From positions 2,487,953 through 2,551,952 of the forward strand of contig NZ_LK391969.1 in NCBI RefSeq assembly GCF_000939975.1: 64,000 bases of DNA, written 5' to 3'. This DNA comes from Pseudomonas saudimassiliensis. Lineage in GTDB: Bacteria; Pseudomonadota; Gammaproteobacteria; Pseudomonadales; Pseudomonadaceae. Under the pieces are notes generated by a model. That model was not told where the DNA came from and made no database searches. It worked only from the letters and a program-made list of their open reading frames with translations. Shown one piece after another: positions 40,582 through 64,000 of this stretch. The translations under genes and the position numbers were made by a program. Positions within the stretch are counted from its first letter, which is position 1. Every line of letters starts with the position of its first letter.

Positions 40582-40944
40582 GCTCATGGGAGGTGCTGGT
40601 GCCCGCCCTGGGCGGTTCGAGCACCAGCTCGTACCAAAATTCCCAGCACCGCCACTGTTGCCGGCAAACGCTATACCACCAGCCAGTACGTCCTCCGGAA
40701 GATCGAGCTCCTTCTAAACTGACCGCCTTGCCGCCAGCTCCGCAGTCATCTGTGCGGCACGCACGGCGTTAGACGGTGCCGGGCAGCTGCCCTTGGCGAA
40801 CACGCACCCGTGCCATCCGTGGCGCTCGTGTGCGGCCGTCCATGGCCGCACACGGTTCGCCAAGGGCAACCGCCCAGCACCGTCCTGTCGACTCATGAGT
40901 TGCTGAGGGCAGGTGAGCGCGGGGTGGAGGCAGGTTTGCCCGAG
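40582..40944. other. Intergenic region with two nested inverted repeats
   Basis: No convincing gene is seen between the purA terminator and the convergent aidB gene. The region contains a branched inverted repeat at 40595-40628 (8-bp outer stem, 5-bp inner hairpin) and a large one at 40772-40884, annotated separately. The remainder (about 40630-40770 and 40885-40944) shows no recognised signal. Confidence 0.6.
40772..40884. repeat. Large imperfect inverted repeat with inner perfect hairpin
   Basis: Two 30-base arms (40772-40801 and 40855-40884) are inverted copies with about three mismatches. Directly inside the right arm is a perfect 11-bp hairpin (CGTGTGCGGCC with GGCCGCACACG, 40827-40854, 6-base loop). 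The outer ends read GACGGTGC and GCACCGTC. The 113-base unit looks like a folded RNA or a small non-autonomous mobile repeat. It lies between convergent genes, so it might also act as a bidirectional terminator. Confidence 0.8.
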
Positions 40945-42594
40945 TCAAGTTATCTGCGGGCGCGCTCGCTCGATCAGCGCTTGCACATCCAGCCCGCGGG
41001 GCAGGGTGCCGTAGACGCGACCGGGCTGTTGCAGGCGGCTGGCGATAAAGGCGTCGGCTACGGTATTGTCGCCGGCTTCCAGCAGCAGCTTTGCCTGCAG
41101 TGCCACGGCCACATCTTCGGTCAGCTGGCGGGCGCGATACTGAATGTCATCCTTGTCGGCAAAGTGTTGCTGTAGCTGGCTGATATGCGCCCGCAGGCGC
41201 GGATCACCCGCGCCATCGCCCAGCTCGGCAAACAGCATCTCGACTATCCCCGGCTCCTTGGACAGCGCCCGCAGGACGTCCAGGCACTGCACGTTGCCGG
41301 AGCCTTCCCAGATCGAGTTTACCGGAGCTTCGCGATATAGCCGCGGCAGGATGCTGTCTTCCACGTAGCCGGCACCGCCGAGGCATTCCTGCGCTTCGTT
41401 GATCATCGCCGGGGCGCGTTTGCAAATCCAGTACTTGCCGATGGCGGTAACCAGTCGGGCAAAGCCGGCCTCGTGCGGATCATCGGCATGGTCCAGGGCG
41501 TGGGCCATGCGCATGGTCAGGGCCAGGGCGGCTTCGCTTTCCAGGGCGAGGTCGGCCAGCACGTTTTGCATCAGGGGCTGTTCGATCAGCGGGCGGCCGC
41601 CAACGTTGCGGTGGGCGCAGTGGTGACTGGCCTGGGCCAGGGCCTGGCGCATCAGCGAGCTGGAGCCGACCATGCAATCGAAGCGGGTCAGGGCGACCAT
41701 TTCAATGATGGTTGGCACGCCGCGACCTTCCTCGCCGATCATCCAGGCCAGGGCGCCGCGGAACTCGACTTCGCTCGAGGCGTTGGCCAGGTTGCCCAGT
41801 TTGTCCTTGAGTCGCTGAATATAGAACTGGTTGCGGTTGCCGTCGGGGCGATGGCGGGGCAGCAGGAAGCAGCTCAGTCCCTTGTCGGTCTGCGCCAGGG
41901 TGAGAAAGGCGTCGCACATGGGCGCCGAGCAGAACCATTTGTGGCCCAGCAGCTCGTAGGTCTGGCCGGGGCCGGGCTGGCCTATGGGCCAGGCCCGGGT
42001 GGTATTGGCCCGCACATCAGTGCCGCCCTGTTTCTCGGTCATGGCCATGCCGATGGTCAGGCCGGTCTTGTCTGCCATGGGTAGATTGCGTGGGTCGTAT
42101 TGGCGCGACAGGATCTTCGGCAACCACTGCTTAGCCAGGTCCGGCTGCAGGCGCAGTGCCGGCACGCAGGCGAAGGTCATGGTCATCGGGCAACTGGTGC
42201 CGGCTTCGGCCTGGTTGTGCAGGTACATGGTTGCCGCGCGGGCAACGTGGGCGCCGGGGCGCGGCGCCGTCCAGGGTGCGCTGGTGATGCCATGGGCGAT
42301 GCCGGCGCGCATCAGTTCATGATAGGCCGGGTGAAACTCCACCAGGTCGATCCGGTGGCCCTGGCGATCATGGCTATGGAAGACCGGCAGGTTGTCGTTG
42401 GCCTGGAAGCCAGCCTGCATCAGGGGGCCGCCGCCCAGCGCCCCGTAGGCGGCCAGTTCATCGTCTGCCCAGCCACCCTGGTAATGCCGCACCCAGTGTT
42501 GCAGCGCCAGGTCGCTGCGGTACAGGTTGATACCGTCCAGCGGCGGCACCTGGTTGGTGACTTCGTGGGTTTCCGCATACTGATGCAGGTTCAT
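40945..42594 (-). CDS. aidB: Acyl-CoA dehydrogenase family protein, AidB-like
   Basis: This 549-residue flavoprotein belongs to the AidB branch of the acyl-CoA dehydrogenases, which in E. coli is part of the adaptive response to alkylation and binds DNA. Conserved AidB blocks are MTEKQGGTDVRANTT, GHKWFCSAPMCDAFL, RLKDKLGNLANASSEVEF, LTRFDCMVGSS and NSIWEGSGNVQCLDVLR. The longer C-terminal part, relative to ordinary acyl-CoA dehydrogenases, is present. GGAG lies 9 bases before the ATG. No ada or alk genes are nearby, so the physiological role here is open. Confidence 0.9.
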   Translation of the reverse strand: MNLHQYAETHEVTNQVPPLDGINLYRSDLALQHWVRHYQGGWADDELAAYGALGGGPLMQAGFQANDNLPVFHSHDRQGHRIDLVEFHPAYHELMRAGIAHGITSAPWTAPRPGAHVARAATMYLHNQAEAGTSCPMTMTFACVPALRLQPDLAKQWLPKILSRQYDPRNLPMADKTGLTIGMAMTEKQGGTDVRANTTRAWPIGQPGPGQTYELLGHKWFCSAPMCDAFLTLAQTDKGLSCFLLPRHRPDGNRNQFYIQRLKDKLGNLANASSEVEFRGALAWMIGEEGRGVPTIIEMVALTRFDCMVGSSSLMRQALAQASHHCAHRNVGGRPLIEQPLMQNVLADLALESEAALALTMRMAHALDHADDPHEAGFARLVTAIGKYWICKRAPAMINEAQECLGGAGYVEDSILPRLYREAPVNSIWEGSGNVQCLDVLRALSKEPGIVEMLFAELGDGAGDPRLRAHISQLQQHFADKDDIQYRARQLTEDVAVALQAKLLLEAGDNTVADAFIASRLQQPGRVYGTLPRGLDVQALIERARPQIT

Positions 42595-61793: not shown

Positions 61794-61945
61794 TATGTTG
61801 TTCCTCGAGTATTACATCTCAGGGGTTGCCCGTCGGGCGGTCATTTTTATAACCGCTGTAACATAGATGAATCTGCCAACAAATCAAGCAATTGACGTGT
61901 CGATCTAGACCTAAGTATGAGGAACCCCTGCGTTGTCGGTCGGTC

Positions 61946-62752
61946 TTATCGCGCCGCCTCATACAGGGGGCGTACCTTGGGAATATTGTTCTGCAGGTTC
62001 TGGATGCGCCCGGAGGAGGAAGGGTGAGTGCTCAGGAAGGCGGGCGGCTGGCCCTGGGAGGCGGCGGCCATCTTCTGCCACAGAGTGACCGCCGCGTCCG
62101 GCTTGTAGCCGGCCCGCGCGGCCAGTTCCAGGCCGATCAGGTCTGCTTCGGTTTCGTTGGAGCGACTGTTGGGCAGCTCGAGGCCGTACTGTACCGCCAT
62201 GTCCGCCGCCTGGCGGGCGCCTTCGCCCAGGCCCAGCAGCGAACCAATCACCTGGGTGCCCATCTGCGTGGTATAGGCGCGGGAAATGGCCTCGCGACCG
62301 TGTTCGCGCAGAGCGTGGGCAATTTCATGGCCCATGATCTGGGCAATCTCGTCGTCGCTCAGCTGCAGCTTATCGACAATGCCGGTATAGAAGATGATCT
62401 TGCCGCCGGGCATGCAGCTGGCGTTCAACTGGTCGCTCTTGATGAGGTTCACTTCCCACTTCCAGTTGGCCGCATCGGGGCGGAAATGATCGACCTCCTT
62501 GACCAGCTTGTCAGCGATGCGGTGCAGTCGCTTGAGCATGGCAGCATCGGTGTTGAGCACCTTTTTTGCTTTCGCCTCGGCGAGCATTTCGTTGTAGGAC
62601 TCGGCCGCCATCTGGTCGACCTCGGCGCTGGACAGTGCGCTGAACATGTATTGGCTGCGATCGACGCCGACCGCTCCGCCCTGGGTGGTATTGACGGTTT
62701 CGCAGCTCGCAAGGAGCATGAATGGCAGACAGCAAAGTAGACGGGTGCGCAT
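61946..62752 (-). CDS. M48-family lipoprotein metallopeptidase
   Basis: A lipoprotein signal ends LLAS-C (Cys17), so it is membrane-anchored in the periplasm. The zinc-binding HEIAH is in MGHEIAHALREHGRE (about 140-154), and the third ligand Glu is in NETEADLIGL. The length is 268 residues. It resembles LoiP/YggG, which act in outer-membrane protein quality control. AAGGAAG lies close before the ATG. It is separated from the porin gene by about 150 bases. Confidence 0.92.
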   Translation of the reverse strand: MRTRLLCCLPFMLLASCETVNTTQGGAVGVDRSQYMFSALSSAEVDQMAAESYNEMLAEAKAKKVLNTDAAMLKRLHRIADKLVKEVDHFRPDAANWKWEVNLIKSDQLNASCMPGGKIIFYTGIVDKLQLSDDEIAQIMGHEIAHALREHGREAISRAYTTQMGTQVIGSLLGLGEGARQAADMAVQYGLELPNSRSNETEADLIGLELAARAGYKPDAAVTLWQKMAAASQGQPPAFLSTHPSSSGRIQNLQNNIPKVRPLYEAAR

Positions 62753-62869
62753 GACGGACTTCCTTCGCGATTTCGATACCGGGGGCAGCGTGGCGTGCGC
62801 TCGGTAGCAGATCAGATTTAACTAGCTTGGACCGCTGCGGTTTATAAAGCGTTCCGGATCAGTTGGCAA

Positions 62870-63538
62870 TCATTCCGCTGCGGCGGGGCTGTCGAGCCGC
62901 ACCGCATGACCGATCGGGTTGCAGCAGTGCGGGCCCTGGGTGGCCGGGCTGCTGACCGCAGGGTTGACCGGATACATCAGTTGCACCTGGGAGTCGGCAT
63001 TGAGCAGTAGCGGTTGCAGCGCCCCCGGCGCCGTGGCGCTGGCCAGCCAGATCGCCTGCTCGGCCCGGTTCAGCGTCACCGGCATGCGCTCGCCCAGGCG
63101 CGCCGGCAGGCCTTTGGCCGGGGCCGTGATCAATGCGCAGCTGTCCCAGTAAGTGCCATCGTCAAGGGCATAGCGATCCCAGAGTGCCGCCAGCGCCAGG
63201 CCGCCGTTCTCACGCCGCAGGTACCAGGGCTGTTTGCGCTGGCCCTGCGGCTGCCAGACATAGAAGCCATCGACGGGAATCAGGCAGCGGCGCTGCACCA
63301 GGGGCTCGCGGAACATCGGCTTGTCATGGAGGAACTCGGCCTGGGCGGAAAAGGGCGCGCGGCTCAGGTCGCGCAGCCAGCCAGGGGTGAGATTCCACAG
63401 CACCTCGGTGCATTCGAGGCGGCTGTCGGTCTTGCGCAGGATCAGGATGCGATTGCCGGGGCTAAGGTTCCAATTGGGCCGCCAGCCTGCGGGCAGGTCC
63501 GGCGCCGGCGCATTGAACTGGGCGATGCGGCCGGTCAT
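62870..63538 (-). CDS. SRAP (YedK/HMCES) family protein with degenerate active site
   Basis: SRAP proteins shield abasic sites in single-stranded DNA by bonding through Cys2. Here the protein starts Met-Thr-Gly-Arg, so Cys2 is replaced by Thr. Compared with E. coli YedK from memory, the Asn-Ala-Arg loop reads SAQ (Ser64, Gln66), the catalytic Glu in the F-x-E-W pattern is Val94 (GFYVWQ), and the His before D/E-R-x-P is Gly149 (LGERMPV). The fold is otherwise recognisable (RRCLIPVDGFY, KQPWYL). The length is 222 residues. Its start overlaps the CPXCG gene stop (ATGA). It should not form the normal crosslink. Confidence 0.85.
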   Translation of the reverse strand: MTGRIAQFNAPAPDLPAGWRPNWNLSPGNRILILRKTDSRLECTEVLWNLTPGWLRDLSRAPFSAQAEFLHDKPMFREPLVQRRCLIPVDGFYVWQPQGQRKQPWYLRRENGGLALAALWDRYALDDGTYWDSCALITAPAKGLPARLGERMPVTLNRAEQAIWLASATAPGALQPLLLNADSQVQLMYPVNPAVSSPATQGPHCCNPIGHAVRLDSPAAAE

Positions 63539-63735
63539 AGCGGATCTTCCTCACGGCGCAGGTCGAGCTGGTAACCCTCCAGGTCATTGTCTACCCAGAG
63601 GTTGACGAGGATCGGTTGGCAGCAGACGGAGCAGTCCTCCACATAACTCTGCGAGCCGCCGCTGAGGTCGACCAGCAAGCGGATGGGCTCGCCGCAGTGC
63701 GGGCAATGGCGTGCGCATTCATCCAGCAGGGGCAT
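63535..63735 (-). CDS. CPXCG motif cysteine-rich protein
   Basis: This 66-residue protein has two Cys pairs, CPHCGEP at about residues 11-17 and CSVCCQPI at about 35-42, likely forming one zinc-ribbon-like site. The C-terminal half is acidic. It matches the CPXCG small cysteine-rich family seen in Pseudomonas. GAGAGAA is upstream of the ATG at 63735. The stop overlaps the SRAP-like start, so both are made from one message. Nothing is known of a joint role. Confidence 0.85.
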   Translation of the reverse strand: MPLLDECARHCPHCGEPIRLLVDLSGGSQSYVEDCSVCCQPILVNLWVDNDLEGYQLDLRREEDPL

Positions 63736-63862
63736 GGGATTCTCTCGAAACGGGGTAGTAGGGCAGTCTAGCAGACCCGGGGGTGAACTACCCAGGCGGC
63801 GGATGTGGCGGGAATTTGCCGGTACGCTTCAGGCATGATCCGACAAAACCGGCACAGGGGAA

Positions 63863-63891
63863 TTGTGAGTCCCCTCGCTGCGCCGCATAAT
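63863..63891 (+). promoter_or_regulatory. Sigma70 promoter of the acyltransferase gene
   Basis: A -35 TTGTGA (63863-63868) and a -10 CATAAT (63886-63891) with 17-base spacing lie 33 bases before the ATG. The spacing and sequences are good. Confidence 0.6.
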
Positions 63892-63923
63892 GCGCGCTTT
63901 CTACCCAAGGTAATGAGGAATGC

Positions 63924-64000
63924 ATGGGCGAGTTTGATGCCATCCGGCCCTATGGAGATGACGAAGTACCTGTCGTCCTGCAGCGGTTGCTGCAGGATCG
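63924..64000 (+). CDS. Acyltransferase family protein, 5' end only
   Basis: Only the first 25 codons are within the window. The start GEFDAIRPYGDDEVPVVLQR resembles the beginning of Pseudomonas 1-acyl-sn-glycerol-3-phosphate acyltransferase-like proteins. GAGG lies 5 bases before the ATG. The assignment is from the N-terminus alone and is tentative. Confidence 0.55.
   Translation, partial: MGEFDAIRPYGDDEVPVVLQRLLQD

Follow-up and report, generated by a model that had tools for sequence, protein, structure and literature searches.

The closest described relatives of the gene studied here are YedK and HMCES, members of the SRAP sequence family (PF02586), whose current label is peptidase/abasic-site crosslinker. 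PMC3765255 proposed that SRAP acts in the SOS network as an autopeptidase. The chemistry of YedK is described in PMC9436759, according to which Glu105 is needed, the Glu and the His catalyze ring opening, and Asn75 has a minor role where the abasic site is internal. Removal of the Cys2 thiol abolishes crosslinking by YedK but turns the protein into an apurinic/apyrimidinic (AP) lyase, as a Schiff base can still be made by the N-terminal amine. The C2A and C2S variants both give a borohydride-trappable Schiff base, and C2A has lyase activity (PMC9436759). In the same source, the rate constant for Schiff-base formation is little changed by H160Q (1.8 versus 1.7) and is 0.2 with E105Q, and E105Q lowers the lyase rate constant of C2A from 0.05 to 0.002. 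We analyzed a 64,000-nucleotide stretch of the Pseudomonas saudimassiliensis genome (contig NZ_LK391969.1; here, the window), in which a minus-strand gene at positions 62870 to 63538 encodes a 222-residue SRAP-like protein with all four catalytic positions substituted. This protein is very probably a conserved pseudoenzyme, and its gene overlaps that of a small cysteine-rich protein, CPXCG.

Loss of the catalytic residues from a retained SRAP scaffold

The window protein matched the Pfam SRAP profile with an E value of 4.1e-42 and 144.6 bits (curated cutoff, 27.1). Its predicted model has the SRAP fold, and in a structural alignment of this model with YedK (6kcq) the first aligned residue was residue 2 in both. 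With the YedK sequence, checked against the PDB, as the reference for numbering, Cys2, Asn75, Arg77, Glu105, and His160 correspond to Thr2 (codon at 63533 to 63535), Ser64 and Gln66 (within Ser-Ala-Gln, codons 64 to 66 at 63341 to 63349, in place of Asn75-Ala-Arg77), Val94 (63257 to 63259), and Gly149 (63092 to 63094), all on the minus strand. The initial annotation had described a catalytically degenerate SRAP protein that keeps its fold signature; its alignment was reproduced, and the loss proved to be genus-wide and accompanied by purifying selection. Judged by sequence and predicted fold, the protein is a member of the SRAP superfamily; judged by its residues, it is not a crosslinker of the YedK/HMCES type.

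SRAP profile matches were found in 36 of 37 Halopseudomonas genomes, the exception (G026) being 81% complete, and each of the 36 carries a degenerate SRAP-like copy, one distinct protein apiece, so that the gene is core in the genus. Position 2 is Ser in 23 copies, Thr in 9, and Ala in 4 and is never Cys. Position 75 is Ser in 30, Asn in 5, and Thr in 1. Glu is absent from position 105 in all 36 (Leu, 19; Val, 7; Ile, 4; Met, 3; Ala, Gly, and Ser, 1 each), as is His from position 160 (Gly, 24; Ala, 7; Ser, 4; Thr, 1). The earlier statement that every catalytic residue is lost therefore holds for the window protein and, for Cys2, Glu105, and His160, for the whole genus, but not for the Asn of the NAR loop, which is kept in 5 of 36 copies.

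The loss is confined to the active site. Of the 21 columns that are at least 95% conserved across the 28 canonical proteins, four (2, 75, 105, and 160) fell below 75% in Halopseudomonas, and the other 17 were all kept (Fisher test, 1.7e-4). The 75% cutoff was our choice, with column 76, at exactly 75% in the genus, scored as kept, and the 28 proteins called canonical include one with Tyr at position 160 (L160) and one with Phe at position 75 (L161). Ratios of nonsynonymous to synonymous substitution rates (dN/dS) were 0.033 to 0.126 in eight Halopseudomonas pairs, rough values in that several dS estimates were near or above 0.8; one Pseudomonadaceae pair gave 0.263, and another pair was identical. 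No internal stop was found in the 36 genomes carrying the gene. Mean net charge in the genus was +5.6 for the degenerate proteins versus −4.2 in the comparison. The pattern in Halopseudomonas is one of selective removal of chemistry from a retained scaffold.

An operon with CPXCG and DUF2007

The first gene of the window pair (63535 to 63735, minus strand) encodes 66 residues and matched the profile Cys_rich_CPXG (PF14255) with an E value of 1.8e-21 and 76.2 bits (cutoff, 25.2). This is the length given by the initial annotation, which had counted four cysteines where there are six, at positions 7, 11, 14, 35, 38, and 39. The arrangement CPxC...CxxCC was present in 103 of 105 copies of CPXCG relatives by a strict pattern and in the remaining 2 by inspection. 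The ATGA overlap of the two open reading frames was confirmed: the CPXCG stop and the SRAP-like start share 4 nucleotides (63535 to 63538, minus strand).

In the genus, CPXCG adjoins the SRAP-like gene in 32 of 36 copies and DUF2007 (PF09413) does so in 23. In these 23 copies, DUF2007 lies between the other two genes, and its junction with the SRAP-like gene is a 4-base overlap in 16, a 1-base overlap in 5, and abutting in 2. CPXCG alone is next to the SRAP-like gene in nine copies and overlaps it by 4 bases in six of them, by ATGA in the window and with a GTG start in the five others. Neither gene is adjacent in four copies; CPXCG was not found in a whole-genome search of those four genomes, nor DUF2007 in three of them. 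Within 1.2 kb upstream on the same strand, CPXCG was found for 73, DUF2007 for 79, and both for 70 of 87 distinct Pseudomonadaceae proteins from outside the genus, and neither was found for any of 28 canonical SRAP genes. CPXCG was missing beside 14 of the 87 family copies, and a whole-genome search of 11 such genomes did not find it in 9. The SRAP-like gene is kept in genomes where neither partner was found, three in the genus (G005, G028, and G015) and five in the family (G077, G041, G057, G080, and G038). Because DUF2007 sits between the two genes in most copies, the window pair represents a three-gene operon in reduced form. The proposed conserved pair thus stands as far as co-encoding with a zinc-ribbon-like CPXCG protein is concerned, but CPXCG is not an obligate partner.

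Solved relatives of CPXCG and DUF2007 were sought by sequence, and none was convincing. A promoter and terminator scan of 61800 to 64000 found no promoter-like site on the minus strand upstream of the pair and was uninformative. Three variant arrangements were noted: about 1.1 kb separates the DUF2007 and SRAP-like genes at L199 (genome G148), as if the operon had been interrupted by an insertion; CPXCG and DUF2007 lie side by side in G060 (contig C37, near 40813 to 41174), with no SRAP-like match in that genome; and in L130 and L132 (family f20) a canonical SRAP gene has a DUF2007 gene on the opposite strand at a distance of about 1 kb.

The next gene downstream of the window pair, which we do not count in the operon, encodes an M48 metallopeptidase (61946 to 62752, minus strand). 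The SRAP-like and M48 genes of L321 and L324 are separated by a chemotaxis-receptor-type gene (checked with Pfam in L321), which is absent from 61946 to 62870 of the window, where M48 follows directly. On the other side, a divergent gene starts at 63924 on the plus strand and runs off the window at 64000. It serves as a synteny marker and would, by its relatives at the locus (L322, L324, and L325), be an acyltransferase (PF01553).

Relatives outside Halopseudomonas

The 87 family proteins come from a set of 204 matched genomes of the family, the genus excluded, with identical proteins counted once, and are not a random sample: 60 loci were best scoring or picked to represent genera, and the rest came from two other scans. 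All 87 lack the His160 segment and keep Glu105. Position 75 is His in 61 and Gln in 26; position 2 is Cys in 39, Ser in 38, and Thr in 10, so that 48 combine Ser/Thr2 with Glu105. Loss of the residues is accordingly not common to all paired members, in that the genus lacks Cys2, Glu105, and His160 and the family keeps Glu105 throughout and Cys2 in part. Retention of Cys2 in relatives of the pair, with the change being a local mutation, had been named beforehand as grounds for refutation; 39 of the 87 operon relatives do retain Cys2, but the loss is graded across the lineage and not a local mutation.

Farther out, DUF2007 precedes the SRAP gene in the five loci of family f8, which keep Cys2 and Asn75 and have Asp (three) or Gln (two) at position 105 and Thr, Gly, or Ala at 160. 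L324 (genus) and L325 (family) have a divergent acyltransferase gene next to the locus, and L322 (f8) has it too, with one further gene between; this shared neighbor supports orthology of the locus. The six f36 loci (L118 to L123) encode fully degenerate proteins, with Ala/Thr2, Cys75, Val/Leu/Ile105, and Ser/Thr/Gly160. Neither CPXCG nor DUF2007 is a neighbor within reach of them; four of these genomes have CPXCG on the same contig at a distance of about 48 to 97 kb. Ala2, Thr75, Asp105, and Ser160 are the residues at one f37 locus. Across 163 distinct proteins, residue 2 was only Cys, Ser, Thr, or Ala.

The noncanonical proteins fell on one side of a branch with support of 93/90 in one tree and 90 in another. 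A quick tree of the 87 family and five f8 proteins, with the N terminus excluded, required at least seven changes in the presence of Cys2, gain and loss not being distinguished. In the order scan, 71 of 194 genomes matched, and the 30 best-scoring loci were read (8 family, 12 noncanonical, and 10 canonical). In the class scan, 69 of 274 genomes matched at an E value of 1e-30; no degenerate lineage was seen among the 27 best-scoring loci, one per genome, read from the 66 matched genomes that lie outside the order, all 27 having Cys2, Asn75, Glu105, and His160. Two further SRAP-like copies in G021 (L055 and L056), left out of the counts as no start was found, have a CSHYEAP start, the NAR motif, and IYEPDW replacing the usual EW motif and represent another SRAP branch.

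A phage or mobile origin was considered and rejected: scanning viral sequences with the degenerate profile yielded four loci, and the two that were read (L286 and L287) were canonical. A viral scan with the canonical alignment gave 80 loci, 16 of which were used solely to deepen the structure alignment. Searches of plasmid and phage proteins gave only matches below 60% identity (31 to 40% among the matches listed).

Canonical SRAP genes and LexA-type sites

Canonical SRAP genes with Cys2, Glu105, and His160 were also read in 12 of the 36 Halopseudomonas genomes, copies being counted where read and a second, partial match in G035 being left out. About 700 bases upstream of each gene were scanned for a LexA-type palindrome. 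Six of the 27 canonical genes, each of them one of the 12 from the genus, have such a palindrome with no or one mismatch at −64 to −79; those of L002, L006, and L009 are perfect. No site with fewer than three mismatches was found upstream of the 36 degenerate genus genes or of the 89 genes of the "pseu" class (which includes L160 and L124), and one of six f36 copies (L122) has a site with two mismatches. Half of the canonical genus genes, all accessory, thus look SOS controlled by their upstream sequence, and the degenerate copy is core and has no such site.

Possible function of the degenerate lineage

We favor, with a probability of roughly one half, the explanation that these proteins form a distinct, vertically kept SRAP lineage selected away from covalent abasic-site capture, with a noncovalent DNA-binding role. 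The SRAP DNA groove would still be used, to bind single-stranded DNA or an abasic-site or 3'-junction structure. No thiazolidine crosslink would form, and binding would therefore be reversible and constitutive rather than one-shot and SOS induced, with CPXCG and DUF2007 as possible accessory regulators or adaptors. Reversible binding is favored because the other near-invariant columns and the net positive charge are kept; positions 4, 67, 106, and 162 are, we presume from YedK structures, DNA contacts.

Several observations weigh against this explanation. These four positions may be conserved for folding, and net charge is a weak indicator of DNA binding. Residue 77, which we take to be a DNA contact in YedK, is variable in the 36 Halopseudomonas copies (Arg, 13; Gln, 12; Asn, 6; Lys, 5), and this sequence variation speaks against DNA binding. 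The missing LexA-type site is by itself a weak criterion, because 20 of 27 canonical genes also lack one at two or fewer mismatches. In the trees, the branch uniting the lineage does not reach the starred level of support, and Halopseudomonas is placed, weakly (82/44), with f36 and not with its own family, contrary to synteny, a grouping that may come from long branches.

The close or overlapping genes in the genus and the family, set against none of 28 canonical SRAP genes, and the lack of a LexA-type site would also fit a module for protein-protein contacts without any DNA role, its SRAP fold scaffolding CPXCG, DUF2007, or both for regulation or signaling. We consider this rather unlikely: the SRAP-like gene persists in eight genomes (three genus and five family) where neither partner was found, the f36 copies have no such neighbors, and the near-invariant SRAP columns, the catalytic ones excepted, are kept.

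It is unlikely, too, that the free N-terminal amine still forms a Schiff base at abasic sites and makes these proteins weak AP lyases. Residue 2 is always small, so the Met is probably removed, the YedK C2A and C2S variants retain this chemistry, and 48 of 87 family members pair Ser/Thr2 with Glu105. Glu105 is gone from all 36 Halopseudomonas copies, however, and in PMC9436759 its replacement cuts the C2A lyase rate and the Glu and His catalyze ring opening. By this YedK yardstick, slow crosslinking may persist in members with Cys2 plus Glu105, and those with Ser/Thr2 plus Glu105 may act as lyases; neither reaction is expected of the window protein at a useful rate. Residual chemistry is most likely in the Pseudomonas-type Ser/Thr2-plus-Glu105 members and least likely in the window protein.

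A relocated Cys/Glu/His set performing the same reaction is very improbable. Cys85, Cys134, Cys205, and Glu68 are invariant in the genus, but no His reaches 90% conservation among the 36, so that a relocated triad was rejected and the degenerate reading of the initial annotation is upheld. Cys205 was also rejected as a new nucleophile, because canonical members (L128, L129, and L135) carry a Cys at the same C-terminal place, as human HMCES presumably does. That the gene is a decaying remnant, as the lost residues and the dispensability of canonical SRAP in the genus might suggest, is scarcely credible given dN/dS of 0.03 to 0.13, which already contradicts decay, the lack of internal stops, and the 17 noncatalytic columns kept.

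We tentatively propose that the active sites of the SRAP proteins at one syntenic Pseudomonadales locus form a natural graded series: f8 with Cys2, Asn75, and Asp or Gln105 without the His; Pseudomonadaceae with Cys/Ser/Thr2 and Glu105 without the His loop, predicted to be crosslinkers or AP lyases according to residue 2; and Halopseudomonas with a fully stripped reader. The lineage might then be a constitutive module that reads abasic sites or single-stranded DNA or acts as a lyase, with two small regulators encoded alongside it, replacing an SOS-induced suicide crosslinker. Such a series allows SRAP function to be separated from chemistry by simple in vitro assays, and CPXCG and DUF2007, two unstudied small families, gain a testable context.

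Comparison with known systems

The label now in use is probably incorrect for this lineage, and SRAP is likely to do something besides capturing DNA covalently, because the His loop is gone from 87 of 87 and Cys2 from 48 of 87 family proteins, the catalytic set is gone in Halopseudomonas, and selection is strong; the protein's job probably differs from that of the enzyme it resembles. Among the literature matches listed, no study joined CPXCG or DUF2007 to SRAP, and nothing described a degenerate SRAP lineage or a CPXCG-DUF2007-SRAP operon, subscription papers being sparsely covered. The operon partners match the Cys_rich_CPXG (PF14255) and DUF2007 (PF09413) profiles. The SRAP-like genes resemble the YedK C2A and C2S variants described in PMC9436759 in that the thiol of Cys2 is gone and the fold is retained, here through natural Ser, Thr, or Ala at position 2. 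Those variants keep Glu105 and His160, whereas the Pseudomonas-type relatives keep Glu105 only and the window protein keeps neither. Compared with YedK and HMCES themselves, the window protein has Cys2, Asn75, Glu105, and His160 all substituted, and its gene has no LexA-type site and lies in an operon with CPXCG, joined in most relatives by DUF2007.
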